Of a stretch of 28,339 bases of DNA, positions 510 through 28,036 are shown in pieces. This DNA comes from a virus: IMG/VR virus record IMGVR_UViG_3300050124_000034, positions 1-28,339 of that record. One strand, 5' to 3'. Every line of letters begins with the position of its first letter. The first letter of the stretch is position 1. The notes under the pieces were generated by a model. It did not search any database. It was not told the origin of the DNA and saw nothing but the letters and a program-made list of their open reading frames with translations. The position numbers and the translations under genes are program-made.

Positions 510-2588
510 TTAAACCTCCTTGCCTATCTTTGACTTGATACTGTATGAACTTATTGCAAACGCCCCTGTATCGCCATTCAAACGGTGTACGGCGACTTGA
601 TAAGTCTTGCCCCATGACATTGCCTGTCTAAGAGATATGGATGTCATAGCCTCACTGTCGCCGCCCTCAAGTACTCCTAATTTTGAACATGTATCAACTT
701 CGTCTATAAGTTGAATTTCAATTCCAACTACTCCGGCACATGCCATATTGAAAACATAATAATACGGTTGTTTTTTAAACTGCGGCAACCCGTTATCAAA
801 GGCTTTTGAGATCATCCATGCGTCAAACCATGTGCCGCCTTCGTCAAGCGACTGCATAGGGTCAAAGGCATAGAGGAAGTTATCCGCTGCAGACGCACCC
901 CATACTTTGCCACCGAAGAGAAACGCCGTTGTGAGAGCGCAGGGGATTGTCCATATATACCACGCAAGACGGTTTTGAGCCTTTAGAATATCTGAGTAGT
1001 CTATGAAAGCGGTTGAATTGTAATCCCAAAGGTATACTTTGTTACCGACAAATAAGTAATAATAAAATCCATCATCAACCGATACTGCCGCCTGTAAATC
1101 AGCGAGGGAGTTTTTAAGTAAATCGGGATTTATGTTCTGAGATATCGGAACAATTACACGTTCGTTATTTGTGTTCGTTGTGGCGACCGTGTAAACTCCA
1201 CCTTTTGAATTTGCCCATGTAAGATTATTATTGATAAGTTGAACGCTATTTGGCATATCGCAACCAATACCAACATGAACCTCAGAAGTCGGATAACTCT
1301 GTTTTAGACTTGTACTGTCCCAGTAGAAGCCTTTTTCATAGGTTGAATTTTCCTTTAAAATAAACAGTTTGCCAAAGTCTTTCCCAAAGGCAGTTATGGG
1401 GTCTGAGGGAGAACCGACGTAATCAACACTGTCATCAGGCCAGTATGTAGGGTCACCGACTGCCGAATGGTATATTGCGTTCGGTTCGTTGGAATTTCCC
1501 GCAACAAACATGCTATTGCCCGATGTTTGCCCTTGATATGCTCCGCCATACCATGAGCCAATAGTACATTTTTCAATAGGCGTTGGGCTTGCATATAACG
1601 TATACGAGTATGTAACAGTCATGTTAGGCACATCCGCACTTGTGGCATCAACTAAATGCGTACTGAATGTAATTGTCCCTAAGATTCTGTTAAGCGTTGC
1701 TGTTATTCCTCCCTCAATATCTGTTGTAGAATTATTTGCAAATCCAAACGATAAAACCGTTCCACTTAAATTATTATAATTAATTTGTACTGTAGATTTA
1801 TCCACGTTCGTGCCAACTGTAGTGTCTAATCCTTTGTCGCTTAAATTGTAGACAGTGCTTGTGGCGTCAGTACGAATTTCATTTTTTACTTGTGGAGTTA
1901 TATAATTTCTTGCTTCTAAACCGGCTCCTGCACCTGATGCGTGCATATTTGTTCTAATTACCGGAATATGGGGTGGTGTTATTCTCGACCAATAAAAAAG
2001 ACTGTCAGTATCTCCTAAAGAAACTAAAAACATCAAATGGGGCAATGTTTCACCTTTAATTATTACATCAAGTTGGTATAAAGCATTTCCGGCAGAGATA
2101 ATAAGATTATTAGCCTTTATAACATTAACCGAACCATATCCAATTTCTTCTGAAAAAGACTCTGCCAAGAGCATGTGAGCTGAGGAAAAGTCAAAATCAG
2201 CGTAAATATATGTAAAATTAGGAGCGTTGTACGTATAATCCGTGGGAACTCTTTCAATATTTGTACCATCAAAATTTAGAAGAGCTTTCTCAGTCAATAT
2301 ATAAATTCCATATTTATTATCTATTTGTACACTGTTTATAATGAGATTGCGTAATAAAACAGTTGAACCGTCACTCGGGGCAACGTCCACAATCTTCCCG
2401 TAAGTCTGCTCGATCTCCTTAACAAGCCCCGGCCGAGTTCTGAGCATGGTGTCCCTGTACCACATATTTAACATAAGGGCATTTTGACCGTCGTCTATTT
2501 CATTCGGCAGTTTGGAAAGGTTTACGCCGCTTGCTGGGCTGTAAACTTTACTTTGGTCTTGAAGAATGGGCATTTGGGGTATTTTCAT
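510..2588 (-). CDS. Tail hub / DNA-stabilisation protein, P22 gp10-like (putative)
   Basis: A 692-aa protein, cytoplasmic until packaged into the virion, with no signal peptide or membrane segment. It is rich in short beta-strand stretches (aromatic, Thr and Asn-rich), as expected for a beta-propeller tail hub such as P22 gp10. The opening region, with a Gly-Val-Asn motif and RTRPG near residue 50, resembles the N-terminus of such proteins. It follows the small connector gene and precedes an ejection-like gene, matching the P22 order gp4-gp10-ejection. TTG at 2591 could also initiate, but GAGGTG at 2594-2599 is better spaced for ATG at 2588. The exact family assignment is inferred. Confidence 0.55.
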   Translation of the reverse strand: MKIPQMPILQDQSKVYSPASGVNLSKLPNEIDDGQNALMLNMWYRDTMLRTRPGLVKEIEQTYGKIVDVAPSDGSTVLLRNLIINSVQIDNKYGIYILTEKALLNFDGTNIERVPTDYTYNAPNFTYIYADFDFSSAHMLLAESFSEEIGYGSVNVIKANNLIISAGNALYQLDVIIKGETLPHLMFLVSLGDTDSLFYWSRITPPHIPVIRTNMHASGAGAGLEARNYITPQVKNEIRTDATSTVYNLSDKGLDTTVGTNVDKSTVQINYNNLSGTVLSFGFANNSTTDIEGGITATLNRILGTITFSTHLVDATSADVPNMTVTYSYTLYASPTPIEKCTIGSWYGGAYQGQTSGNSMFVAGNSNEPNAIYHSAVGDPTYWPDDSVDYVGSPSDPITAFGKDFGKLFILKENSTYEKGFYWDSTSLKQSYPTSEVHVGIGCDMPNSVQLINNNLTWANSKGGVYTVATTNTNNERVIVPISQNINPDLLKNSLADLQAAVSVDDGFYYYLFVGNKVYLWDYNSTAFIDYSDILKAQNRLAWYIWTIPCALTTAFLFGGKVWGASAADNFLYAFDPMQSLDEGGTWFDAWMISKAFDNGLPQFKKQPYYYVFNMACAGVVGIEIQLIDEVDTCSKLGVLEGGDSEAMTSISLRQAMSWGKTYQVAVHRLNGDTGAFAISSYSIKSKIGKEV

Positions 2589-2592
2589 CAAG

Positions 2593-2997
2593 TCACCTCA
2601 TTAAATCAGGATCGGTCAATGCACCGTAAACATCCTCAATTTCAGGCGCGTCAAAAGACATGGCGTTCTTTGCGTTTTCATAAGACACTGCAAAAATGTT
2701 GTATTGAGTGTCGCCATCTATTCGGGCAAACTCACGCGCTAAGCCTAAAGGTAAAACACTTTGAGCGGTCATATCGGTTATGGTCAATTCGTCAGTAAGA
2801 GCAGTCAAAGGGGCAGGGATGCCATTAGCGACAAAATCATAACTTTCGCATGTCAGTAATTCGAGTTGCAACATGTTACAGAACGCAGGCGCGAGATTAA
2901 TGTATTTGCTTTCTCGGTTTTCCTCGACTATTCCCTTTGGGTTTACGTGTCCAAGCTGGCTTAATGATGCCAGAGCTATTGAGTTTACTGTTACCAT
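2593..2997 (-). CDS. Head-tail connector / tail accessory protein (putative)
   Basis: A 134-aa mostly helical protein starting at ATG 2997 behind AGGAGG (about 3004-3009). Size, helical pattern and position between the capsid genes and the tail-hub gene fit the gp15/gp6/gp4 connectors that dock on the portal ring. Its stop (TGA 2593-2595) lies 4 bases upstream of the tail-hub ATG, so the two are probably coupled. Its first 101 bases overlap the upstream 111-aa gene in another frame. Family membership is inferred from position and fold pattern. Confidence 0.55.
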   Translation of the reverse strand: MVTVNSIALASLSQLGHVNPKGIVEENRESKYINLAPAFCNMLQLELLTCESYDFVANGIPAPLTALTDELTITDMTAQSVLPLGLAREFARIDGDTQYNIFAVSYENAKNAMSFDAPEIEDVYGALTDPDLMR

Positions 2998-17279: not shown

Positions 17280-18152
17280 TTATGTTTTAATACCGTCAAA
17301 CCGGTCACCGCCGCCGCTTGTGTCGCCATAATTGCCTTCAAGAATTTTTTGGCGGTTTGCAGACTTAATAATCCAGTCAAAGCCGCATCCGTGAAAGCTT
17401 CCGGTCCGCCCCGTTAAAAAGTCGCTTGCTTCTACACGCTTGAAAAACTCTCTTATAGCATCAAGCGTCAATTCGTCATACCTCCACCATACCCGCATAG
17501 TTGTCTGTCTTGCCTCAGTCATTGTTTTAATTTTTGGCAAACTGATACAGACGGTATTGTATATATCCATGATCTTTTGATAAGGGCAAACAGCTGCATG
17601 CCCCTCCACGGAATTCAACCCATCAAGCACAGGCTCGTCGGTGCCAACCGACATACTATCGTCAGATAGTATACAAGGTACGGTTAGGTTAGGTACGGTT
17701 AGGTTAGGTACGGTACTCGATACGACCTCCGCGGGTAATTCCGTAGGATGGTCACACGGAATTCCGTCGGAATTACCCGGGATTTCCCTCGGAATTGCGT
17801 CAGACTTTTTGCGTTTTCGTTCCCTGTCATATTTCCGCTTACGGATTAACTGCCCAGCGTAATCATTCCAGTCGTGAATAAATAATTTACCGTCAACACT
17901 ATCAAACCACCTTGAGGATATTAAGGCAGTCACAAACTTTTCAGGGGACTTCCGCCACCCTGCGGCGGCGGATATCTCCTCATAATCAAGATGGCTTATT
18001 TCTCCGGTTTCGTCCTCAATCTTATCAATGGCCCAAGACCAAAACCGAGCCAAATATGCGGCGGCAAGCATTTTTTCGATGCCCAACGAGGCGGCAAGCG
18101 GTTTTAATTTAGGGTTAGTGAAAAAATCATTATGTAATTCAATCCAAGCCAA
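17280..18152 (-). CDS. Replication initiator-like protein (O/DnaD-type context)
   Basis: A 290-aa protein. The N-terminal domain (1-100) begins MAWIELHNDF and resembles winged-helix N-termini of Gram-positive phage replication proteins. A basic, low-complexity linker (about 105-160) includes a repeated TVPNL unit. The C-terminal domain (about 185-270) is helical, with SFHGCGFDWIIKS typical of DnaD-like initiators. It is followed directly by the primase-helicase. The linker codons contain direct and inverted repeats, as in lambda O, where the origin lies inside the gene. The initiator role is inferred from fold pattern and context. Confidence 0.75.
   Translation of the reverse strand: MAWIELHNDFFTNPKLKPLAASLGIEKMLAAAYLARFWSWAIDKIEDETGEISHLDYEEISAAAGWRKSPEKFVTALISSRWFDSVDGKLFIHDWNDYAGQLIRKRKYDRERKRKKSDAIPREIPGNSDGIPCDHPTELPAEVVSSTVPNLTVPNLTVPCILSDDSMSVGTDEPVLDGLNSVEGHAAVCPYQKIMDIYNTVCISLPKIKTMTEARQTTMRVWWRYDELTLDAIREFFKRVEASDFLTGRTGSFHGCGFDWIIKSANRQKILEGNYGDTSGGGDRFDGIKT
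17653..17799. repeat. Iteron-like cluster, probable phage replication origin
   Basis: Inside the initiator gene are: a perfect inverted repeat ATACTATC-GTCA-GATAGTAT (17653-17672); two direct copies of GGTACGGTTAGGTTA (17677-17691, 17692-17706) plus a partial third (17707-17715); and four copies of a CGGAATT-type element in mixed orientation (17734-17743, 17757-17766, 17768-17777, 17790-17799). Lambdoid and many Gram-positive phages carry origin iterons within the initiator gene. Confidence 0.65.
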
Positions 18153-18167
18153 ATTATTTTATTCCCC

Positions 18168-18449
18168 CTATTCCTTTAAACTCTGAATTGCAAGCCGCAT
18201 GCCAAGTTTGAAACCGGAAACAAAAAAGTCACGCGAAGCAATGGCTGACACGTCGCTCACTCGATTGCTGAGACGTCGAAACGCTGGCAGCCGCTCTGGT
18301 ACTAACGCTTTTTCAAACTCAACGGCGGCACTGTACAGCGTCTCAACAGCCGCCTTATATTCTTTACTTTCGCAAATATCGCCCTCATTCAAAAGGCTGG
18401 CAAACATGGTTTCAATGGTGTTTTTTTGCTCAAAAATACTCTCACTCAT
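18168..18449 (-). CDS. Hypothetical 93-aa protein with GFKLGMRL tail
   Basis: A helical protein with an acidic N-terminal half and a C-terminal segment FFVSGFKLGMRLAIQSL. The same GFKLGMRL motif ends the 117-aa protein encoded at 18874-19227, so the two are probably related. The pattern resembles small Firmicutes proteins of the DUF6809 type, which end in a similar Phe-Gly-Phe-Arg/Lys-Leu-Gly helix. GAAAGGG precedes ATG 18449. Function unknown. Confidence 0.65.
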   Translation of the reverse strand: MSESIFEQKNTIETMFASLLNEGDICESKEYKAAVETLYSAAVEFEKALVPERLPAFRRLSNRVSDVSAIASRDFFVSGFKLGMRLAIQSLKE

Positions 18450-18563
18450 GATAAAAACCCTTTCAAAAATCTTATTTTATTCTGCAAATTTTGAGTAAAT
18501 TATTAATAAAACTCCTATGTAGTCGCAGAGTTATTCTTACGGATATAAGCGAGAATAGCTTGC

Positions 18564-18872
18564 TTAATTTCGTTGTGGGTCATGTATTACTTTCACCTCT
18601 CCTGCCATGATATTTCTATAGGCACTCATATTTTTGGAAGTGAGGAAAGCATTGCGTTCTAAAGAATCTTGAGAAACCCGAATATCTAAATCCGGGATTG
18701 TTATTCCGAATTCGCGTTCAATGGCGTTCCGCATATAAAACGCATGCTTGAGCGCATCCTCTATGTCAGGAATGGGATTTGGAAAACTTTCAGCCCCTTC
18801 ATCCGTTATGGCGGAAACCTGAAACCCCTTTCCGCTCGGATGAATGTCGACCATAATAACAACTTTATCCAT
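18564..18872 (-). CDS. Hypothetical 102-aa protein
   Basis: ATG 18872 is one base after the upstream TGA, with GGGGGAG ten bases before it; longer in-frame versions would overlap the upstream gene. The product starts MDKVVIMVDIHPSGKGF and reads like an alpha/beta fold: strands, a DIEDALKHAFYMRNAIEREFG helix pair and a basic tail. This resembles a small HicB-like or double-stranded-RNA-binding layout, but no diagnostic residue is visible, so no function is assigned. Confidence 0.6.
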   Translation of the reverse strand: MDKVVIMVDIHPSGKGFQVSAITDEGAESFPNPIPDIEDALKHAFYMRNAIEREFGITIPDLDIRVSQDSLERNAFLTSKNMSAYRNIMAGEVKVIHDPQRN

Positions 18873-18873
18873 G

Positions 18874-19227
18874 TCAATCATTCTCCCCCATGTCGCGGTA
18901 GTCTTTTGTATCTTCATCTTTGAAACATTCAGCGCCCAGTCGCATGCCGAGCTTAAAACCATCTTTAAACCCCTGGTCGTATCCGGTATTTAAGTAGGAA
19001 CCCTGTATGTCAGAAATAAGGTCTGATGCTTCGCGCTTTTTACCCTCCGAAATTTCTATCAGCAAACAATCAATAGGCTTATTAAATCGTTTATCAAGCG
19101 CTTCCTCTTCAGGGGTTGACATTGCATGTCGAGTATCAGCAGCCGTCGTACATGTACAAAGATAGTCAAGCGCCGTGCCGTCGTAGTTGAATCCACATTT
19201 CTTTATAAGAGGTAAACAACCGTTCAT
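18874..19227 (-). CDS. Hypothetical 117-aa protein, paralogue of the 93-aa protein
   Basis: A soluble protein with an N-terminal Cys-containing region (CTC), an acidic helical middle and a C-terminal GYDQGFKDGFKLGMRL segment shared with the protein at 18168-18449. GAAAGG lies before ATG 19227. The shared tail at the end of two nearby genes suggests duplication and divergence in the early operon. Function unknown. Confidence 0.65.
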   Translation of the reverse strand: MNGCLPLIKKCGFNYDGTALDYLCTCTTAADTRHAMSTPEEEALDKRFNKPIDCLLIEISEGKKREASDLISDIQGSYLNTGYDQGFKDGFKLGMRLGAECFKDEDTKDYRDMGEND

Positions 19228-19261
19228 TTATAATCAACCTTTCAAATTTTGATTTTTTATT

Positions 19262-19798
19262 CTAAACCCGTGCCATGCGGCTTGTTATATCAATAACAGC
19301 GCAAGAAATACCGGCCAACTCTTGTAAAATTTTTATTTTGTCAGGAACTGCTTGATATGCCGCTGCAATACCGCTGACGCACAGCAAGACTTCGCCTTTG
19401 TCATCGTCCGGCACAGTCGCCCATATCGAAAGCAATTCGCTTGTAGCTGCTTTTGCTTGGGCGGCTGCTTTTTGACGGTCTTTTACTATTTCGCTAATTT
19501 CATGTTCAGGAGTAAATTGAAGCATTCGCGCTGGTGTACTACTATAATAACTTGCAAGCCATTCATAAAGGAATTCCGGTATCAATTTGCCTTTAACGGA
19601 TAGCACCTGCTGCAGATGCTCAAGGTTGAAATAGTCCGGTAGTTTAATGTTGCGTTTTTCTGCCCATAAAGTGATGTAATTATATAAGCCTCTGAAATCA
19701 GTGCCCGGGTATTCTTCGTTGCGCATCTGACAGTATTCAAGAAACGCCCTGACATTATCGCTTTTCCCGGTAGTATCATTTTCAAATTGATAATTCAT
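19262..19798 (-). CDS. Hypothetical 178-aa protein
   Basis: A soluble, largely helical protein. A Tyr/Trp-rich N-terminal half includes GLYNYITLWAEKRN; a Lys/Ala/Gln helix spans about residues 105-125; a hydrophobic C-terminal region (ILQELAGISCAVIDI) is too short for a confident membrane helix. GGGAGG lies nine bases before ATG 19798. It is in the early operon between unknown genes. No family recognised. Confidence 0.65.
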   Translation of the reverse strand: MNYQFENDTTGKSDNVRAFLEYCQMRNEEYPGTDFRGLYNYITLWAEKRNIKLPDYFNLEHLQQVLSVKGKLIPEFLYEWLASYYSSTPARMLQFTPEHEISEIVKDRQKAAAQAKAATSELLSIWATVPDDDKGEVLLCVSGIAAAYQAVPDKIKILQELAGISCAVIDITSRMARV

Positions 19799-19868
19799 TG
19801 TAACTGGCCTCCCAATTTTTTTATTGTATTTAAACCAATATGGGGTTATAATTGTTACAGGTATTTAA

Positions 19869-20378
19869 TTAAATTGCCCGTTTAGTATCAGCACTCCCTA
19901 TATTTGCCGCCTTTACCATTCCCGTGGTGAGGGCGGCACTTTTATTAAAGAGATGATTTGCGTCCGAAAGAATACTGTTGAAATCATCAATAAAATCGGA
20001 AAGCATATTTATCTTTAAAAAAGCATCTTTGTAACCGCGGATCAACTCGGAAACCACGTCGGACGTTTCACCTTTCAAACCCTCTTCTATACCTTCTGGG
20101 CAAATACAAAAAAAGTCTGTGCTTAAATCACGCATAATTAATTGGGAATATTCGGATTTGTCTTTTGCCTTAGATAGCATATCGCCAACGTCGCAGAAAT
20201 TTTTATAAGTCACAATAAAACTCGGCGCAAAAGGAGAATCAGAGGGATAAGAATTGTGCTCAGGAGTCAATAACTCGGAGGTACATTCTGAGCAATAAAT
20301 TGTCTTATTGTCATAATGTGAAAAATATCTTCCCTCAATGACTTGGCCGCATCTCGAACATTTAATCTGATTTTCCAT
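19869..20378 (-). CDS. Zinc-ribbon / LIM-like early protein (169 aa)
   Basis: The N-terminus carries CSRC at residues 7-10 and CSEC at about 29-32, a treble-clef or LIM-like zinc finger. A helical body follows, with FFCICPEG in the middle and an acidic helix near residues 135-150. GAGAGGG precedes ATG 20378. Small zinc-finger proteins in early phage operons often bind host proteins or nucleic acid, but no specific function can be read here. Confidence 0.65.
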   Translation of the reverse strand: MENQIKCSRCGQVIEGRYFSHYDNKTIYCSECTSELLTPEHNSYPSDSPFAPSFIVTYKNFCDVGDMLSKAKDKSEYSQLIMRDLSTDFFCICPEGIEEGLKGETSDVVSELIRGYKDAFLKINMLSDFIDDFNSILSDANHLFNKSAALTTGMVKAANIGSADTKRAI

Positions 20379-20422
20379 TTTAAAAACCCTCTCTTATAAT
20401 AAATTTTGATTATGCCCTTGAA

Positions 20423-21058
20423 TTATTGCACCACTTTTAAGTATGCTGGTACCGGTCTTTTTACCGGCATAGATTTATGAGTATCGGAATTAATCATAAA
20501 TTCCTTGCCATCGGGAGTGGAGTATTTTGAATAAACGGGGATGCTGTTTTCAGCCGCCCAAACTTCCATAAAATCCGGTTTACCTTGAAGATGCAGAATT
20601 TTGCTTTGAACTGACATTAGTGCTACCGTAAATTTGCGCACATCCCGATTTTGATAGTCGAACAAAAGACCGGGCAAGTTTTCTTGACCTATAGGCTTGC
20701 CTGCAGGCAATTTATTAATTTCCCCAATAGTGGAGAAATAATCTTTCATTTCCCACTTGTCGCCGTCGTATCTTTTCTCAATAGGGAAAAACCTGACGAA
20801 TTCAAGCGGGGTTAACGAGGACAAAATATCCATAGTGGTCGCGATAAATCCCTGATAATTCAATAAGTCGTTGAATTCTATGATCTCTCTTTGATTGAAA
20901 ACTACATACCTGAGAGCAAGAAAAGCATATTGTTTTATAATTTTCTTTTGCTCGTAATCACTTTGCCCGTGCTGAATTTCGTTCAGCTTGCGGCCACAGG
21001 CACCAAGATAGATGTCTGGCATATTAACGGGTTTTGTTTTAACTAATTCCACGTCCAT
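20423..21058 (-). CDS. Hypothetical 211-aa early protein
   Basis: A soluble alpha/beta protein with LGACGRKLNEIQ near the N-terminus, a central SSLTPLEFVRFFPIEKRYDG segment and a basic Pro/Lys C-terminal tail. AAGGAG lies close (3 bases) before ATG 21058. TTG 21079 is an alternative start, so the first residues are uncertain. It is in the early operon. No family recognised. Confidence 0.6.
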   Translation of the reverse strand: MDVELVKTKPVNMPDIYLGACGRKLNEIQHGQSDYEQKKIIKQYAFLALRYVVFNQREIIEFNDLLNYQGFIATTMDILSSLTPLEFVRFFPIEKRYDGDKWEMKDYFSTIGEINKLPAGKPIGQENLPGLLFDYQNRDVRKFTVALMSVQSKILHLQGKPDFMEVWAAENSIPVYSKYSTPDGKEFMINSDTHKSMPVKRPVPAYLKVVQ

Positions 21059-21119
21059 AATCTCCTTATTGCTTTTCAAATCCGATTATAATAGCGGTAT
21101 AGATTTTTGCAGTAACTAC

Positions 21120-21449
21120 CTATTTAGGGCAAACGGTCAGATTGATTAGGCCAACGAGCTCTTCCGGGTAAAGTTCATTTATGCGCCCTTGAACAACATC
21201 GTAACAATCTCGAAAAAAATCCTGCACATCATCTTTGCAATCTAAAATAGGATTATCCCTGACCTTTTTGTAAATTTCCCGTGCCTCTTCTGATTCCTCA
21301 CCGAAACCGCAAGTTTTCAAAGTGTTTATGTAATAGTCACCCAACTCAGCAACTATGCGGGGCTTGTCCTCTTCTTTAGGCTGCCATTTGTCAAAATTCA
21401 ATGTGCGCTCATGAATTGAAAATAACTTATTGATTACAATCTCTGGCAT
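21120..21449 (-). CDS. Hypothetical 109-aa early protein
   Basis: ATG 21449 is preceded by GGGGGTGG at normal spacing. The longer form to 21506 would overlap the upstream gene by 23 bases. The product is acidic and helical, with INKLFSIHERTL near the start and two Cys in the DCKDDVQDFFRDCYD segment. It is in the early operon. No family recognised; acidity and small size are features of some host-inhibitor proteins, but that is not evidence of such a role. Confidence 0.6.
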   Translation of the reverse strand: MPEIVINKLFSIHERTLNFDKWQPKEEDKPRIVAELGDYYINTLKTCGFGEESEEAREIYKKVRDNPILDCKDDVQDFFRDCYDVVQGRINELYPEELVGLINLTVCPK

Positions 21450-21483
21450 TACTGCCACCCCCAAAAATTTAGTCCAAAACTGA

Positions 21484-22008
21484 TTATAATTTTGCACACA
21501 GGACATCAGAAATTAATGGATTGCCGAAAGTGTCAAGAGTATCACACCAACATTCCCCGTCTTTTATTCCGAACCACCCGTGAATTTCCCTTTCCGCTTC
21601 CCCTGTGCTCATGCCGTTTAATTTAGCCAACAGCCCAATGCCACCAACCAACCCCTGAGAACGAATTTTTGCAATAACCTTTATTTTGTTTTGCACCCAA
21701 ACAATAGCATTATCTTTATATGGTTCGGTCTCACAGGTGTCGGAGCGAACTATATCAATTCTGCCGGTTACCCTTTTAAGAGGGAATTTTGCGCCTATGG
21801 CATGCTCAAGGGCCTTTGTGTCGCTTGGCATATTATACGGGCCTGCCGTTACTACGCCGTGGACTTCGCCGTTGCATGTGTTGCAAAGCACTTTATCGCC
21901 ACACTTGATATTTAGATTTTTGGGGACTTCAAATAAATATTCTTTTGAATTCTTTTTTCTAATGGTATGATGTGCAAAAACAATTTGTACGCCTGAGATT
22001 TCATTCAT
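21484..22008 (-). CDS. Hypothetical 174-aa early protein with Cys motifs
   Basis: ATG 22008 overlaps the upstream stop (ATGA), with GGAGGTG nine bases before it. Residues 1-110 look beta-rich, with CGDKVLCNTC (about 37-46) resembling half of a zinc site or an SH3-like barrel edge. The C-terminal part has a Gly-rich IRSQGLVGGIGLLAKL segment and CWC. It is coupled to the preceding 57-aa gene. No family recognised. Confidence 0.65.
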   Translation of the reverse strand: MNEISGVQIVFAHHTIRKKNSKEYLFEVPKNLNIKCGDKVLCNTCNGEVHGVVTAGPYNMPSDTKALEHAIGAKFPLKRVTGRIDIVRSDTCETEPYKDNAIVWVQNKIKVIAKIRSQGLVGGIGLLAKLNGMSTGEAEREIHGWFGIKDGECWCDTLDTFGNPLISDVLCAKL

Positions 22009-22178
22009 GAACTTTGACACCTCCATATTTTTTCTTTTAAAACAGTGATCCGCTGGGTTCCGTCAATCTTCTTAAGCCGTTGCAAAAGCCGGTATGTATC
22101 AACGAGAACGGCTAAATGATCGATTTTGTCAGCATCTTTTACGATGATGTTAAAATGATCAGTTTTTGTGGATTGCAT
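22005..22178 (-). CDS. Hypothetical 57-aa early protein
   Basis: AAAAGGAG (22187-22194) is eight bases before ATG 22178 and overlaps the previous gene's stop. The product is a small mixed alpha/beta protein with a VDTYRLLQRLKKIDG helix. It overlaps the next gene by four bases (ATGA), indicating coupling. No family recognised. Confidence 0.6.
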   Translation of the reverse strand: MQSTKTDHFNIIVKDADKIDHLAVLVDTYRLLQRLKKIDGTQRITVLKEKIWRCQSS

Positions 22179-22183
22179 AGGCA

Positions 22184-22627
22184 TCACTCCTTTTGCTTTT
22201 TATTTGAGGGATGCCTTGCCTGCCGCTTACGCCGCTCGAACTCACCGTTTATGTCGCCAAGGGGCAGGTCATCGTGATATCCTGGAACCATATCTGTGAA
22301 TACATCAGATGCTGTGTCAAGAAACTGCTGGGGCGCGTTACGCAGAGCCCACGTAAAAAGTGAGGAGGGATAGCCGCTTTTTGTGATTAGGGCAACCCAG
22401 TCAAAAAAGCGCTCAACTTCGTTCTCCGGTGCAGGGGATAAAAAATTTATCATCTCGCCGCACTCTTCGCAGAACAGGTTACAGCTAAAATCATGGTTGG
22501 CGGGTAGATCTTCCGGCTCGATATGTACCTCTTTTCCGCATACAGGGCAATCGCAAAAGAATTCGTCGCCATAGATCGCTACTTTGATTTCAAGATCATC
22601 ATTGATTTTGGTTTTTACGTAAATCAT
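22184..22627 (-). CDS. Zinc-ribbon early protein (147 aa)
   Basis: CDCPVC (about residues 25-30) and CEEC (about 53-56) form a rubredoxin-like or zinc-ribbon knuckle pair. A helical Trp/Phe-rich region (FFDWVALITKSG) and a basic C-terminal tail rich in Arg, Lys and Gln follow. AAAGGA precedes ATG 22627. The zinc ribbon plus basic tail suggests nucleic-acid binding. Early-operon position; function unknown. Confidence 0.65.
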   Translation of the reverse strand: MIYVKTKINDDLEIKVAIYGDEFFCDCPVCGKEVHIEPEDLPANHDFSCNLFCEECGEMINFLSPAPENEVERFFDWVALITKSGYPSSLFTWALRNAPQQFLDTASDVFTDMVPGYHDDLPLGDINGEFERRKRQARHPSNKKQKE

Positions 22628-22652
22628 TTTTTACAAGTCCTTTCTTTATTAA

Positions 22653-22964
22653 TTATTTAAGAACTATCGTTGTACCTTCTGAAAAAGCGGGTACGGTTTC
22701 CGAACGATAAACGGAATCAGACTGTTTAATGTTGCAATATGTAGGGTCAAGGTTTTTAGTGATAGATATTGCTCCATCATTGCATATAACAAGGCAAAGG
22801 CCACAAATTGGTGCACCGTTTCCGTCTGTCGGCTGCAAGTCGATTTCAAATAAATTCACACCTTCCGGTGTTTCATCGTAATCCTCGTCACCTTGATATG
22901 TGGCCTTGTCGATGTAATATCGCTGACCTGTCGTTACGTTTAAAACATGCTGAAATTTGAACAT
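22653..22964 (-). CDS. Hypothetical 103-aa early protein
   Basis: ATG 22964 is ten bases after AAAGGAC. A longer in-frame version to 23069 would overlap the antirepressor gene by 86 bases and has no SD, so it is rejected. The product is beta-rich and acidic, with FKFQHVLNVTTGQRYYIDKA at the start and a CGLCLVIC cluster in the middle. It follows the antirepressor gene. No family recognised. Confidence 0.6.
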   Translation of the reverse strand: MFKFQHVLNVTTGQRYYIDKATYQGDEDYDETPEGVNLFEIDLQPTDGNGAPICGLCLVICNDGAISITKNLDPTYCNIKQSDSVYRSETVPAFSEGTTIVLK

Positions 22965-22983
22965 AATATAAAAGTCCTTTCTA

Positions 22984-23847
22984 TTAAGCGGCGTCTCCCA
23001 CAATCGGATTTTTCGTGTAGGTAATTCGAAATGTTTTGTCATTGTGATGGATTCCCATGGGGTAGCCATTCTCCCTTAACCATATGGCAATCTTATTCAC
23101 AACGGATTGGGCATACTGCCAATTTGTATCTGAATGACCGCTTATCTGATCCTGAAATGGGACATTTCGCATCTCGTCCGCACTCACTTCAATTTTTGCG
23201 ATTATGGCGCCTATCGCGTGACTGTGGGGTATTCCTGACGAAGAAAGGATTCCAAACTTTTGAGCAATGGCGGTTTTGTCATAAAACTTTTCTTCAATTA
23301 CAACGCCATCCATGGCTATATCAATACCGGCTTTTGCATAAAGTTTTTTCAAATTGGCTGCTATAAATTGCGGGGATACTCCTGCATCTTTAAGCACCTT
23401 TGTAATAATGCGGGATGCACTGTTCACTTCACCAAGACGAGGCTGCGATGGGTCGGAAACCTTTTTCTTATGTAGAAAAGCGTCTGCAAGAACCTTTTGT
23501 GCCTTAAGCTGATACTGCACAAGTTTGTCCGTAACTTCGGGCTGCTCTTTTTGCATGGTCGGGGTGATGGCGATCTTGGCAAGCCAGAGGGGTACAAATT
23601 CGTTATCGATGCAAGAAACCTCCTGTTCGCCGCTCTCGGTGGGGATGTGCAAACTTGCATACCCCTTTTTAAGGACGACATCATGTGAAATTCGACGGCG
23701 CTCATTTGTGGTCTGGCCCTCTGTTAACCCTATACCTCTACATATGTAAGATACGCCAACATGGATTTTTCCGGTTTTCTCGTCTTTGGCCGCCATGAGT
23801 TCGCTGCCCATAAAGGGGATCGTTTTGATTGTTAGTTCGTTTTCCAT
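22984..23847 (-). CDS. Phage antirepressor (P22 Ant N-terminal domain type)
   Basis: A 287-aa protein. Residues 1-125 match the P22 antirepressor N-terminal pattern: KTIPFMGSELMAAKDEKTGK, then YICRGIGLTEGQ and a VPLWLAKI segment. The C-terminal half is a different helical domain with basic patches. P22-type antirepressors bind and inactivate phage repressors to trigger induction. It is the fourth leftward gene after cro, suitable for early control of the CI-like repressor at 24975. AAGGAAAT precedes ATG 23847. Confidence 0.85.
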   Translation of the reverse strand: MENELTIKTIPFMGSELMAAKDEKTGKIHVGVSYICRGIGLTEGQTTNERRRISHDVVLKKGYASLHIPTESGEQEVSCIDNEFVPLWLAKIAITPTMQKEQPEVTDKLVQYQLKAQKVLADAFLHKKKVSDPSQPRLGEVNSASRIITKVLKDAGVSPQFIAANLKKLYAKAGIDIAMDGVVIEEKFYDKTAIAQKFGILSSSGIPHSHAIGAIIAKIEVSADEMRNVPFQDQISGHSDTNWQYAQSVVNKIAIWLRENGYPMGIHHNDKTFRITYTKNPIVGDAA

Positions 23848-23889
23848 AATATTTCCTTTCCTTTTTATTGGTTAGTGATTATGAGGGCA

Positions 23890-24114
23890 TTATTCTGCCT
23901 CTTCGAATTCATCAAATGCGGCTTGAACCACCGTTAAAATATCGTCCTCACTTAATATCTTTTGCTGCAAACATTCGTTGATTAAAGTTCCGAGTATCGC
24001 GGCGGCTCCTATTCTGGTTCTAAGTGGTGAGTTGCATGCGACTAAATCCGTTTCTGAAAAATACTCTATTGTGACACTTTCAGGATTTAAAGCCACTAAA
24101 AATTCACTTACCAT
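23890..24114 (-). CDS. Hypothetical 74-aa early protein
   Basis: ATG 24114, preceded by GGGGTG, lies inside the end of the upstream 43-aa gene (7-base overlap), so translation is probably coupled. A longer form to 24171 is possible but lacks an SD. The product has an N-terminal beta-rich half and an acidic helical C-terminus (SEDDILTVVQAAFDEFEE). No family recognised. Confidence 0.6.
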   Translation of the reverse strand: MVSEFLVALNPESVTIEYFSETDLVACNSPLRTRIGAAAILGTLINECLQQKILSEDDILTVVQAAFDEFEEAE

Positions 24115-24239
24115 AACATGCACCCCGCAAAGAAAACCCCGGCGCAGATGATTGATGCTGAATATCTCCAATCGGATTTTTCCTTAAGTGCCGCGACGAT
24201 GCAAAGTCCAAAAGCTGTAAGAGCAATTAAAACGTTCAT
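24108..24239 (-). CDS. 43-aa membrane micro-protein
   Basis: ATG 24239 overlaps the upstream stop (ATGA) and has GGGAGG ten bases before it. The product has two hydrophobic segments (residues about 2-17 and 29-43) joined by a short charged loop, LKEKSDWRY, giving a helical-hairpin membrane protein. Such micro-proteins in early operons can act in superinfection exclusion or membrane modulation; nothing specific is visible. Confidence 0.65.
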   Translation of the reverse strand: MNVLIALTAFGLCIVAALKEKSDWRYSASIICAGVFFAGCMLW

Positions 24240-24415
24240 ACCGTGTATGCCTCCCTATAAAAGAGATAGGCGTTGACGATGATATTAAAAACTGTGGTAT
24301 TGCCGTTTCCATTGATAAGTTTGCGGGTTTGATATTCAATCGCACTTAATAAATCGGTTAGCATCTGGTCTTGCTGGTCCGGTTCATAATTCCATTGGTC
24401 AAATGAGTTGTTCAT
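24236..24415 (-). CDS. Hypothetical 59-aa early protein
   Basis: AGGAG lies seven bases before ATG 24415; the 41 residues of frame upstream of this Met have no SD and are not included. The product starts MNNSFDQWNYEPDQQDQM and continues as a mainly helical acidic protein. Its stop overlaps the start of the 43-aa membrane-protein gene. It is the first gene after the cro-like gene and its 235-base downstream gap. No family recognised. Confidence 0.6.
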   Translation of the reverse strand: MNNSFDQWNYEPDQQDQMLTDLLSAIEYQTRKLINGNGNTTVFNIIVNAYLFYREAYTV

Positions 24416-24539
24416 AACGATTCTCCTAATATTAATTTGGGGTTCGTTTGAACATCCTTTTGTTTTCAGGCGGGTACGATATGTATTAAACCGCCTGCTA
24501 CTGTTCATAATTTTTTTTAGGTGCAACAATATGCACAAA

Positions 24540-24565
24540 ACTTTTTCACATTTGCGTGAAAAAGT
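24540..24565. promoter_or_regulatory. 10-bp perfect inverted repeat between cro-like and next early gene
   Basis: ACTTTTTCAC - ATTTGC - GTGAAAAAGT. In the leftward transcript the stem is followed by TTTTG, so it could be a weak intrinsic terminator or attenuator after the cro-like gene. As DNA it also suits a dimeric repressor. The rest of the 24416-24650 gap is AT-rich and holds no gene that I can support. Confidence 0.5.
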
Positions 24566-24607
24566 AATGCATTTCTACAAAGTTATAAAATTGTAAATGT
24601 TTCGCTA

Positions 24608-24636
24608 TTGACATTATATATTCCATTATGTACTAT
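24608..24636 (+). promoter_or_regulatory. PRE-like rightward promoter antisense to cro-like gene
   Basis: TTGACA (24608-24613), 17 bases and TACTAT (24631-24636). The predicted start near 24643 gives an RNA antisense to the whole cro-like gene that then enters the repressor gene at 24975. This is the geometry of lambda PRE. No terminator was seen between. Confidence 0.6.
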
Positions 24637-24650
24637 AGGCTTTATAGCTA

Positions 24651-24842
24651 TTACGTTTCGGAATAAATGAGAGTTACCGGAATGTTTAACAATTTTGCTA
24701 AGTTAAAAACAACGTCTATTGGGGGGTCGTTCTTTCTTTCGATTTTTGAAAGTTCTGACTGCGTAATTTTTAACTTTTTTGAAAGCTGTATTTGCGTTAG
24801 GCTCTTGCTATTTCTGATTTCTCGGATTTTATTCTTATACAA
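24651..24842 (-). CDS. Cro-like XRE-family helix-turn-helix regulator (63 aa)
   Basis: The start is TTG 24842, seven bases after GGGAG; a longer frame to 24917 would begin inside the promoter -35 box and is rejected. The product is a single XRE helix-turn-helix domain: IREIRNSKSLTQIQLSKKL, a recognition helix ITQSELSKIE, and helices 4-5 to the end. It is divergent from the CI-like repressor and is the first gene of the leftward early operon, which is the Cro position. It would bind the operators in 24889-24951. Confidence 0.85.
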   Translation of the reverse strand: MYKNKIREIRNSKSLTQIQLSKKLKITQSELSKIERKNDPPIDVVFNLAKLLNIPVTLIYSET

Positions 24843-24888
24843 TGGCTCACTCCCTTTTAGAATGTATAATTGTTGTTGGAACAATATT

Positions 24889-24917
24889 ATTATATATTCT
24901 ATTATGGTATATGTCAA
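24889..24917 (-). promoter_or_regulatory. Early leftward promoter (perfect consensus)
   Basis: On the minus strand TTGACA (24912-24917), 17 bases and TATAAT (24889-24894). It drives the cro-like gene and the early operon. A weaker divergent candidate for the repressor, TTGTTG (24870-24875) - 17 - TATATT (24893-24898), overlaps it, so the two may exclude each other. Confidence 0.85.
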
Positions 24918-24951
24918 TACAATATAGAGTATATATTCTATATTGGAATAT
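24891..24951. promoter_or_regulatory. Candidate CI/Cro operators
   Basis: An imperfect palindrome, ATATAGA - 8 bases - TCTATAT (24922-24943), lies beside the early -35 box. A second TATATTCTAT copy overlaps the -10 box (about 24893-24902). A third related copy, TATATTCCAT, is near 24617-24626 at the PRE-like promoter. Together they suggest two or three repressor sites covering the divergent promoters. Confidence 0.5.
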
Positions 24952-24974
24952 TAATAATTAAAGGTGATTTTGAT

Positions 24975-25751
24975 ATGAAAGAATTGGGTAGAAGATTAAG
25001 GCAATTAAGAGAGGACAGAGGTCTATACCAAAGCGATTTAGCCAAAATATTCGAAAAGTCTCAATCAGCCATTGGCAAATATGAAAATGAAACGTTACAA
25101 CTTGACTATGAAATGCTACGCAAGTATGCCGAGTATTTTAATGTAACAATAGACTATCTTCTTGGGAAAGTAGAAAAACCAAATGAATATAATATAGAAA
25201 TTCCAGATTTTAACTCAAATGAGCCCATACTTCTTTCTGTTGACAGATCTGAAATAAATGAATTTACAAAAGAAAAATGGTCTCGGATAATTAAGGCTGC
25301 TGTAGAAATCGTAGAAAATGGAAATTATAAAATTATTCCAAAAGACAATTCAATTCCTGCCGGGCCACTCCATAAAATTCCTATCATCGGCTCTGTTCGC
25401 TGCGGATACGGCGGGGCGGCCATAGAAGAACACATTGGATATGATTTTTCCGATGTCAAGAATCCGGAAGAGTTTTTCTTTCTGGAGGTCAACGGTGATA
25501 GCATGGAGCCCCAAATTCAAGAAGGTGACTTGGCTCTCGTCCACAGACAGCCCGACGTGGAAAATGGAGAACTTGCGGTCGTAGTCATCAATGGCGAAGA
25601 AGGTACATTAAAGAAGGTTATAAAAAAAGATAACGGAACTTACATTTTGCAAGCGTTCAATTCCAATTTTGAACCACTGAGTTTTGCCGGAGACGATCTT
25701 AATAAAATTCATATTTGCGGGAAAGTTGTTGAAACAAAGAAAAAATGGTGA
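24975..25751 (+). CDS. CI/LexA-like phage repressor (HTH + S24 peptidase)
   Basis: A 258-aa protein. An N-terminal XRE helix-turn-helix (about 1-65, including LYQSDLAKIFEKSQSAIGKY) is joined by a linker to a C-terminal S24 self-cleaving domain. A Cys143-Gly144 candidate cleavage site lies in SVRCGYGG, the catalytic Ser176 in NGDSMEP and the catalytic Lys at about 213 in GTLKKV. This predicts RecA-dependent induction. The start is ATG 24975 behind AAAGGTGAT; the longer frame from 24870 runs through the promoter region. It is the first gene of the rightward lysogeny module and a likely target of the antirepressor at 22984-23847. Confidence 0.93.
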   Translation: MKELGRRLRQLREDRGLYQSDLAKIFEKSQSAIGKYENETLQLDYEMLRKYAEYFNVTIDYLLGKVEKPNEYNIEIPDFNSNEPILLSVDRSEINEFTKEKWSRIIKAAVEIVENGNYKIIPKDNSIPAGPLHKIPIIGSVRCGYGGAAIEEHIGYDFSDVKNPEEFFFLEVNGDSMEPQIQEGDLALVHRQPDVENGELAVVVINGEEGTLKKVIKKDNGTYILQAFNSNFEPLSFAGDDLNKIHICGKVVETKKKW

Positions 25752-25864
25752 GTCTTGTTCCTAACTGTTGAATTTTATCCCGTTTGGTATTATCCTGTAA
25801 TTGATATAATTATAGGTGCATATCCCCAAAAGGGTAATATATAGAAGGAATAGGACGGGATGAA

Positions 25865-26428
25865 ATGATGAGGAACAATCCATATCAAATATTAGGTATA
25901 AATAAAAGTGCATCAGAAGCCGAAATAAAATCTGCATTCCGTCATTTAGCAAAAGAAACACATCCAGATTTAAATGGAGGTAATCAACAACTTACAGAAC
26001 GATTTAGGACGGGTTCAGAAGCATACGCCATATTATCAGACCCCACCAAAAAAGAAGAAGTTGATTATTTAATAAGAGAAGGATCTCAAACTCAAGGGAA
26101 TTATTCTTCGAGCGTAAATAGCGACATAAAGGCGACTGCTCACAACATAGAACATTGTATTCATCAAATGTATGAGCAGGTAAAGCCGGCAAAGAAACAG
26201 GCAATCCATTCTCTTTGGGTGGGGTTGGCTTGGCTTTCTATTGGGCTTATAATCAGCGCAATAAGTTATCTTGTTGCAAATAGCAACGGAGGCGGTACAT
26301 ATTTTGTTGCCTATGGAGCAATTATATTTGGAGGAATACAAGCAGTAAAAAGCTTTTACTGCTTCATTAAAATTAATATAGCGGTAATAAAATATAAATC
26401 TGAAATGTGGAAGTCGATTGGTATTTAA
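25865..26428 (+). CDS. Membrane-anchored J-domain protein
   Basis: A 187-aa protein with a complete J domain at residues 4-70 (HPD at 33-35, preceded by FRHLAKET). A polar linker follows, then two membrane segments (about 117-138 and 146-165). It would recruit Hsp70 to the inner face of the membrane. It lies between the repressor and the integrase, so it is probably expressed in the lysogen and may be a lysogenic-conversion or superinfection-exclusion gene. The SD is weak (GGACGGGA before ATG 25865). The 113-base gap upstream contains TATAAT (about 25805) without a good -35. Confidence 0.8.
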   Translation: MMRNNPYQILGINKSASEAEIKSAFRHLAKETHPDLNGGNQQLTERFRTGSEAYAILSDPTKKEEVDYLIREGSQTQGNYSSSVNSDIKATAHNIEHCIHQMYEQVKPAKKQAIHSLWVGLAWLSIGLIISAISYLVANSNGGGTYFVAYGAIIFGGIQAVKSFYCFIKINIAVIKYKSEMWKSIGI

Positions 26429-26494
26429 AAATCGTATCACGAAAGAATGATTTATAAAATAAAAAAAACAATTAAAAATTTAGGAAGTGAACAT

Positions 26495-28036
26495 ATGCGC
26501 GCTGCGGTTGCTTATCTTAGGTACTCAACTTCCAATCAAACTGAAAACAGCATAGCGTATCAACTTGATGCCGTGCAGGGATATTGTAAGCGGCTTGATT
26601 ATGTATTGTCGGACATTTACACCGACGAGGCCCAAAGCGGCACCAATACCGACAGGGACGGCTTACAACGAATGATGATCGATGCCGAGCAGCACAAATT
26701 TGATGCGATTGTCATATATGATCAATCCCGCCTGAGCCGTAATGTCGTTGACTGGTTTTCTCTACGTGAAAAAATGCGGCAACTTGATATAAAAATCTGT
26801 TCCTGCACCGAGGATATAGAGGAAAGCGACAATCCGAGTGCCTTTTTATCTGAGGGCATGAAAGCCCTTATCAATCAGCATTTTGTAATGGAAACCCGAA
26901 AGAAAACAATAGCCGGTCAAACCTCACGCGCAAGGCAAGGTAAATTTAATGGAGGAACTCCCCCGCTTGGCTATAACGTTGTTGACGGGGATTATATAAT
27001 AAACGATCATGAGGCAATCGCCGTGCGCCTCATATATGACATGTACGCCGATGGTTATTCTTACGGTAACATTGTGGACGAGCTTGCAAAGCGAGGCTAT
27101 AGGAGCAAGCGCGAGGCCGTGATAGGCACCAATGCCTTGAATGTCATCCTGCAGAACGAACGATACATTGGTATTTACTTCTGGAATACCCGATTTGTGA
27201 AACGCTTTAAGAAATGGGCGGGGGGGCAGCCTAACCCCGAAGCCATTAAAATACAGAACGGAATGCCTTCGATAATTGATATGCCAACATGGGAAAGGGT
27301 GAAGAAAAGAATGAGCAATAACAAAATGAACGCTTCCAATAGAGCGAAAAGAACTTATCTTTTGTCCGGACTGCTTCGCTGCGGAAAGTGCGGCGCGCTG
27401 ATGTGCGGAATTACCCATATATCCGGTAAGGGGTATGAAACCTCGTACTATGTCTGTGGTAATAAATATCGAAACCATACCTGCGATGCTCAGAACCTTT
27501 CTGCAAAAATGGTTGAGCGAGAAATTACCGAATCCCTTTTCACCGAAATATTGGATATCGACAGCATAGATAAATACAGCGTTAAGCTGTCAGAAGCGAT
27601 TGAAAGTTTCGGAGATAACAATAAAGACCGTGAAGAGGGCATAAAAAAAGAGCTCACGCAGCGAAAGCGCGAACTCACAAATTTAGTCAGTGCTATGAAA
27701 CAGGGCCACTATACAAATACCGTTCAGGATGCAATAGACGAAACAGAAGCGCAGGTTTCCATCTTAGAAAATCAACTTCGCGAAATTAAAGGGAGCCAAC
27801 AAAAACCCGTAGACAAGGGCGACATTATAATCGGATTTATAAAAGACCTGCAAGAAGCAAAAGAATCGCCCGAAAAGCTGAAAGCCATCATCAAAAAGCA
27901 CATCGTGGGCATAAAAGTAATCGACAACCGCAATCTTGAAATAGCTACTGTTATCGATTACGCCAATACGAATGGTTGCGGAGGTGCGCAATACTCCGTA
28001 TTGACGTACATTTTGAGTTTTTCCAAGCAACGATAA
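26495..28036 (+). CDS. int: Large serine recombinase (phage integrase)
   Basis: A 513-aa site-specific integrase. An N-terminal catalytic domain has the serine in LRYSTSN (Ser11) and DQSRLSRN. A recombinase domain with KFNGGTPPLGY follows, then a zinc-ribbon domain with CGKC (296-299) and Cys321/Cys330, a coiled-coil region (about 380-440) and a C-terminal tail. This is the full PhiC31/TP901-type layout. GGAAGTG lies before ATG 26495, preferred over ATG 26447. As usual for such phages, the gene is the last one before the attachment site, so the right prophage end should lie just downstream. Confidence 0.95.
   Translation: MRAAVAYLRYSTSNQTENSIAYQLDAVQGYCKRLDYVLSDIYTDEAQSGTNTDRDGLQRMMIDAEQHKFDAIVIYDQSRLSRNVVDWFSLREKMRQLDIKICSCTEDIEESDNPSAFLSEGMKALINQHFVMETRKKTIAGQTSRARQGKFNGGTPPLGYNVVDGDYIINDHEAIAVRLIYDMYADGYSYGNIVDELAKRGYRSKREAVIGTNALNVILQNERYIGIYFWNTRFVKRFKKWAGGQPNPEAIKIQNGMPSIIDMPTWERVKKRMSNNKMNASNRAKRTYLLSGLLRCGKCGALMCGITHISGKGYETSYYVCGNKYRNHTCDAQNLSAKMVEREITESLFTEILDIDSIDKYSVKLSEAIESFGDNNKDREEGIKKELTQRKRELTNLVSAMKQGHYTNTVQDAIDETEAQVSILENQLREIKGSQQKPVDKGDIIIGFIKDLQEAKESPEKLKAIIKKHIVGIKVIDNRNLEIATVIDYANTNGCGGAQYSVLTYILSFSKQR

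Follow-up and report, generated by a model that had tools for sequence, protein, structure and literature searches.

An operator-like site within a predicted cI-directed promoter antisense to cro in a phage immunity region

To our knowledge, the way in which repressor synthesis is started in phages without CII has been poorly described outside a few models. The immunity region analyzed here raises this question. It lies close to the right end of a linear fragment of 28,339 bases, IMG/VR virus record IMGVR_UViG_3300050124_000034 (the whole of which is referred to as the window), and comprises a cro-like gene on the minus strand and a divergent cI-like repressor gene on the plus strand (Table 1). 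The cro-like protein (P0002) matched the Pfam families HTH_3, HTH_19, and HTH_31 and no other; by eye, its TTG start codon is preceded by AAAGGGAGTG, and the repressor gene has a ribosome site of its own, AAAGGTGA. Small genes and then a P22_AR_N antirepressor gene (22984-23847) are found on the lytic side of cro. A preliminary description of this DNA had drawn attention to a promoter-like sequence that points rightward through the whole cro-like gene and into the repressor gene, with no terminator between, and had likened it to the lambda promoter pRE.

Table 1. Positions of the predicted signals and genes of the immunity region in the window
Feature	Position	Strand	Remarks
Hairpin ACTTTTTCAC-N6-GTGAAAAAGT then TTTG	24540-24565	-	inverted repeat after cro on the lytic strand
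P_A, TTGACA-17-TACTAT	24608-24636	+	10/12 consensus, exact TTGACA; antisense to cro, into cI
Operator A (distal, OD-like), TATATTCCATTATGTACTATA	24617-24637		in spacer and -10 of P_A; 8/10 palindromic pairs
Predicted leader of P_A transcript	24643-24974	+	complementary to whole cro; start expected about 24643
cro-like gene	24651-24842	-	63 aa, single HTH_3 domain, TTG start
Candidate cI maintenance promoter, TTGGAA-18-TATTAT	24876-24905	+	9/12; weaker than P_A; tentative
P_cro, lytic promoter, TTGACA-17-TATAAT	24889-24917	-	12/12 consensus, perfect
Operator B, TATATTCTATTATGGTATATG	24893-24913		overlaps P_cro, in its spacer; repeat family D1; 7/10 pairs
Operator C, TATATTCTATATTGGAATATT	24932-24952		just upstream of cI; repeat family D1; 7/10 pairs
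cI-like repressor gene	24975-25751	+	258 aa, HTH plus Peptidase_S24 (S24-type)
DnaJ-domain protein gene	25868-26428	+	between cI and integrase; domain match
Large serine recombinase (integrase)	26447-28036	+	same strand as cI

The promoter-like sequence, termed P_A here, is in the DNA as that description had it, matching the consensus at 10 of 12 positions, and the scan of the plus strand from 24637 to 27500, where it ended inside the recombinase gene, listed no terminator-like site. P_A faces the cro-like gene, P_cro, and the cI-like repressor gene, and the cro stop codon lies 43 nt from the P_A block. Within 24400-25000, it scored above the two other cI-directed candidates (9/12). On the plus strand of the 114-nt slot next to the cro stop codon, a match of 10/12 or better occurred in 6.1% of 1000 dinucleotide shuffles, and one with an exact TTGACA, on either strand of the 601-nt region, in 4.2%, and thus the match is by itself modestly unusual at most. 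Promoter-like sites across a 5-kb region numbered 19 versus 15.1 expected (sd 4.9), which is no clear excess. This count and the 6.1% rate both agree with P_A being a functionless match that arose by chance in AT-rich DNA, next to what remains of a diverged operator, an explanation on which the operator and conservation data below bear.

The operator-like motif that had been reported near P_A, TATATTCNAT, is present, but it lies inside the promoter, as the left half of the 21-bp imperfect palindrome of operator A. It occurs three times in the window versus 0.5 expected, a count reached by 0/100 shuffles, and all three copies are within the cro/cI switch. Three 22-nt direct repeats at 24615, 24891, and 24930 form imperfect 21-bp palindromes centred at 24627, 24903, and 24942 (operators A, B, and C), with the consensus TATATTCCATnATGGAATATA. 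Palindromes of at least 7/10 pairs are common, being found at 121 of 28,318 window positions; it is not palindromy but the common sequence of the three repeats that is rare. Operator A is located 14-34 nt past the cro stop codon, 276 bp from B and 315 bp from C (centre to centre), and on the minus strand no lytic-direction promoter of at least 9/12 was listed at this site.

When only B and C were used to build a matrix, A scored 16.2 bits and came third of all window positions after B and C (next, 9.7 bits), and when B or C was left out of the matrix, the omitted site scored 16.7 bits and ranked third (next, 11.2 and 9.6 bits). These results indicated that A belongs to the same operator family as the intergenic B and C, and its sequence makes a strong case that it is, very probably, an operator. 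Its right half-site is weak where TACTAT lies (4.8 versus 11.4 bits). Since the operator is inside the spacer and -10 of P_A, repression of P_A by CI and/or Cro is predicted. BLASTP of CI versus Cro gave no useful alignment; by eye, the presumed recognition helices of the two both begin with QS, a hint, only suggestive, that they use common sites.

To look at conservation of this arrangement, 2.9 million viral contigs were searched with the cro-like protein, and genome contigs were searched too. The sole close relative found was IMG/VR contig L002, and near-identical records may be absent from the searched sets; the conservation case thus rests on one comparison. The L002 cro is 87% identical to the cro-like protein of the window, and the first 65 residues of its repressor are 82% identical to those of the window's, while the rest differs. 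The L002 repressor gene (2527-2865, minus strand) encodes 112 aa with an HTH and no S24 match, and nothing else in the whole contig matched the repressor of the window. With the DNA-binding domain kept and the S24 match missing, these data suggested domain exchange behind the DNA-binding part, and SOS cleavage may be absent in L002. The next lytic-side gene also differs, having an HNH_3 domain in L002. Between the exchanged neighbors the cassette is kept, and the P_A-like element is close to its outer edge in L002. In further searches, the cro-like protein had no match at 1e-5 among 50,697 phage records (weak ones at E up to 10) and 0 matches at 1e-8 in bacterial genomes (391 and 398 genomes), and the switch DNA of the window or L002 had no match in the phage records. 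The cI protein matched in 5/391 bacterial genomes at 1e-25 with 35-49% identity; a comparable layout was not seen by eye in L004 (Acetobacterium, 37%).

The counterpart of P_A in L002 is TTGACT-17-TACTAT with ATATTCCATT, around AATATTCCATTTTATACTATG, 36 nt from the cro stop codon, and its 9/12 score is matched by other L002 sites. When the window's B and C matrix was run on 6.2 kb of L002, the counterpart of operator A ranked first with 13.6 bits (next, 10.0), and its right half-site was weak as well (2.9 versus 10.7 bits). As aligned, 23 of the 29 bp of the block are identical, compared with 39/63 and 5/14 in the non-coding flanks, or 44/77 (57%), giving P = 0.011 for the block and P = 0.057 for the hexamers (10/12); an equivalent placement of one gap changes these to 24/29 (P = 0.003) and 11/12 (P = 0.012). 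The -35 alone (5/6) does not differ significantly from the flanks (P = 0.19), and conservation is strongest in the operator half-site (9/10), indicating that most of the conservation signal of the block is that of the operator. The cro coding sequence is identical at 153/192 positions and at just 35/64 third codon positions, and weaker homology between the two genomes runs about 100 nt past the block. Given that cro is equally similar overall and that the homology continues, the block is no isolated island but part of a longer shared cassette. A block that is more conserved than its non-coding flanks while third codon positions of cro have diverged this far, together with the independent recovery of operator A from B and C, counts against the functionless chance match, which we regard as highly improbable.

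The homology past the block includes the hairpin after cro. A hairpin of altered sequence is found at the corresponding place in L002, about 67-41 nt upstream of TTGACT, and a short T run is behind the hairpin in both genomes; that of the window is absent from the terminator-like sites listed by the terminator scan. This hairpin could act as a weak terminator downstream of cro, much as tR1 does in lambda. The P_A transcript was also considered for a coding role, which was rejected, as the 86-aa plus-strand ORF at 24667-24927 is without a counterpart in L002.

As a control for the -35, we collected the other occurrences of the operator/-10 string, ATATTCCATTNTNTACTAT, which is found at 40 other places in 39 viral contigs (L002 excluded). 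A relative of CI or Cro was found at E up to 1 in 0 of 47 loci (the 39 viral contigs and 8 from genomes), while the same BLAST search found both CI and Cro in L002; the occurrences at these loci were therefore taken as chance matches. In none of the 40 control places did the DNA 16-18 nt upstream match TTGACA at 5/6 or more (the best scores ranged from 1 to 4), compared with 6/6 in the window and 5/6 in L002. This favors a real promoter at P_A, tempered by the lower AT content upstream of the control places (67% versus 77%). A search for ATATTCCATTNTNTACTAT with one mismatch in 391 genomes was discarded as noise, since matches were found in 52 of them and the reversed control was frequent too. 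We conclude that P_A is rather likely to be a working promoter; P_cro, with its perfect consensus, may swamp it. That 24608-24637 is a composite, in which a distal operator serving the repressor(s) that the phage itself encodes would lie within a near-consensus promoter facing P_cro across cro, is a reading on which we are evenly balanced.

A distal operator is known from other switches. In the parts of PMC7250872 and PMC8516035 that describe the CI-MOR switches of TP901-1 and phi13, cI and a small HTH gene are divergent, two operators are located between them, and a third is at the distal end of the small gene. The window resembles TP901-1 in having a distal operator at the cro/mor end, beyond the cro stop codon here and across the stop codon in TP901-1. 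A MOR-type switch as such was rejected, as the cro-like protein had no DUF739 match, while the control, TP901-1 mor, matched DUF739 at 1.6e-42.

We surveyed how common such a third copy is among 26 annotated stretches, hand-picked from lists of matches plus TP901-1, of which 20 were used; L013, L014, L015, L016, L029, and L037 were dropped as having no clear divergent cro-like gene assignable, and the cI-matching genome loci L008, L009, L011, and L012 were left out. The test asked whether a 20-mer of the intergenic region is repeated around the cro 3' end, in an interval covering the last 60 nt of the gene and the 150 nt that follow it, and a comparator was positive when at most 5 of 200 single-base shuffles reached the observed value. 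Operator-like copies at the 3' end of cro/mor were detected in 11 of these 20 hand-picked comparators, namely, Geobacillus PK5.2, phiLC3, TP901-1 (whose OD was thereby recovered), Listeria LMC, Tadhana, D6E, Jimmer2, MissC, Brochothrix BL3, C7Cdelta, and iLp84, the nine negatives being FP_Lugh, phi105, D7138, NF5, Lv-1, MCV2, Aster, MPV1, and R10.1. A third operator copy at the cro/mor 3' end is thus a common Gram-positive arrangement, and the operator part of P_A requires no pRE function. On the window and L002, the 20-mer test gave 5/200 and 11/200 shuffles, respectively, so that for these two the matrix test is the stronger evidence for the operator.

Back-facing promoters were rare at these copies. 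One of at least 9/12 overlaps the repeat in 1 of the 11 positives, and one of 10/12 in none; the negative FP_Lugh has a 10/12 back-facing site, its repeat not being significant. In the promoter scan, no back-facing promoter of at least 9/12 overlapped the TP901-1 site, and phiLC3, which like the window has an intergenic copy at the end of the cro-side gene (an annotated 15-bp repeat; 18/20 match), likewise has none at its repeat. The single case was Streptococcus phage MissC (L033 717-751), in which a back-facing TTGACT-16-GAGAAT overlaps an operator-like copy that closely follows the cro-like gene; this promoter-like site differs from P_A in scoring 9/12 with a poor -10. MissC is possibly an independent case of the operator-plus-back-facing-promoter arrangement. 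Among the matches listed in the open-access literature, we found no report of a back-facing promoter at a cro/mor-end operator.

With 10 of the 11 positive comparators having no overlapping back-facing promoter of at least 9/12, a distal operator can have another purpose. A could accordingly be only a distal CI operator of the OD type, acting cooperatively or by looping with B and C to strengthen repression of P_cro, with the hexamers incidental or inactive. Such a reading explains the common topology and most of the conservation, which in L002 peaks at the operator half-site and is not significant for the -35 alone. It leaves unexplained, however, why a TTGACA outside the palindrome is at the right spacing, with 5/6 bases kept in L002, when none of the 40 chance operator/-10 strings carries such a -35, and why the right half-site is weak exactly at TACTAT in both genomes. 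We consider an operator of this kind alone a serious possibility that nonetheless falls somewhat short of even.

If P_A is active, the following course of events may be envisaged. Just after infection, when CI is absent, P_A and P_cro would fire towards each other, and the P_A RNA would be an antisense RNA over the entire length of cro as well as an mRNA for cI, possibly also, through read-through, for the DnaJ-like and serine integrase genes. P_A would thereby start repressor synthesis without a CII-type activator. CI (perhaps also Cro) would then occupy A, B, and C; occupied B would turn off P_cro and occupied A would turn off P_A, while a weaker promoter beside B and C would keep cI on. As an establishment promoter, P_A would in this way limit itself, and contact of A with B and C may further aid repression. 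Our confidence is equally divided over this mechanism as a whole, a repressor-sensitive establishment promoter antisense to cro, placed on an OD-type site and acting in the manner of 186 pE/FR and lambda pRE.

Lambda pRE is located downstream of cro, is antisense to it, and reads into cI; it has poor hexamers, depends on CII, and is not known to have a CI operator inside. On sequence grounds, P_A resembles it in lying beyond cro, antisense, and in reading into cI without a terminator-like site, and this geometry, which the preliminary description had pointed out, is kept in L002. The likeness does not extend to the promoter itself, whose core is near consensus (exact TTGACA, 17-nt spacer, 10/12) with an operator within. 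Nor was a CII-type activator recognised by Pfam or PHROGs in the scanned lytic-strand ORFs (17280-24418), most of which match no family, the contig being a fragment. A near-consensus promoter, an internal operator, and no recognised CII together indicate that the mechanism differs from that of lambda pRE.

The closest parallel in logic that has been worked out is phage 186. In the part of PMC7708051 that treats the establishment promoter pE, pE is convergent with pR and raises CI, it is activated by CII, CI at the flanking FR represses it, and its interference on pR is not significant. As in 186 pE/FR, a putative repressor site lies within a convergent promoter, operator A (24617-24637) being inside P_A (24608-24636). 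P_A is unlike the CII-activated pE in being near consensus, with no CII recognised in the scanned ORFs, and the likeness is one of described logic.

These two systems also bear on whether P_A, if active, could serve mainly to make antisense RNA or to interfere with transcription of cro, as a brake on lytic growth with little cI synthesis. The predicted P_A transcript covers the whole cro gene, and convergent pRE lowers lambda pR 5.5-fold, as quoted in a passage of PMC4519249. With no terminator-like site between P_A and cI and with the ribosome site of cI, on the other hand, read-through into cI is expected, and pE of 186 had no significant effect on pR in the portion of PMC7708051 cited above. 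A lytic brake of this sort appears unlikely to us.

An OD-type operator at the cro end was known; what would be new is its putative fusion with a back-facing, cI-directed promoter. More tentatively, P_A might be an activator-free, self-limiting establishment promoter. Operator and promoter would then be a single cassette, moving together with the cognate repressor DNA-binding domain, and this one short element would take on the tasks for which lambda uses pRE, CII, and antisense RNA, a reading that we regard as possible rather than probable. If P_A works as proposed, about 30 bp would suffice to give a minimal two-repressor switch both an establishment phase and antisense control over cro, and at least some of the cro/mor-end operator copies in Gram-positive phage switches would have a concrete role.

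Several further features were observed around the two repressor genes. In L002, a perfect promoter, TTGACA-16-TATAAT, is located on the plus strand at 2351-2378, just behind the short cI and pointing into it, and downstream of this promoter, inside cI, there is a 14-bp hairpin with a T run (2617-2650, plus strand). Together they suggest a possible short antisense RNA against the cI end, within which a frame of about 45 codons lies. In the window, the DnaJ-domain gene at 25868-26428 (plus strand) has, by eye, apparent membrane segments after the DnaJ domain and is possibly a lysogenic cargo gene. A similar hairpin-like stretch, CCCC-AAAA-GGG with ATATAGAAGGAA behind it, is present in the window (25820-25850, plus strand) and in L002 (2267-2298, minus strand), where it precedes the differing genes between cI and the recombinase, which encode the DnaJ-domain protein in the window and, by eye, a membrane-like protein in L002. 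This stretch might be an expression signal that stays in place while the cargo behind it is exchanged.
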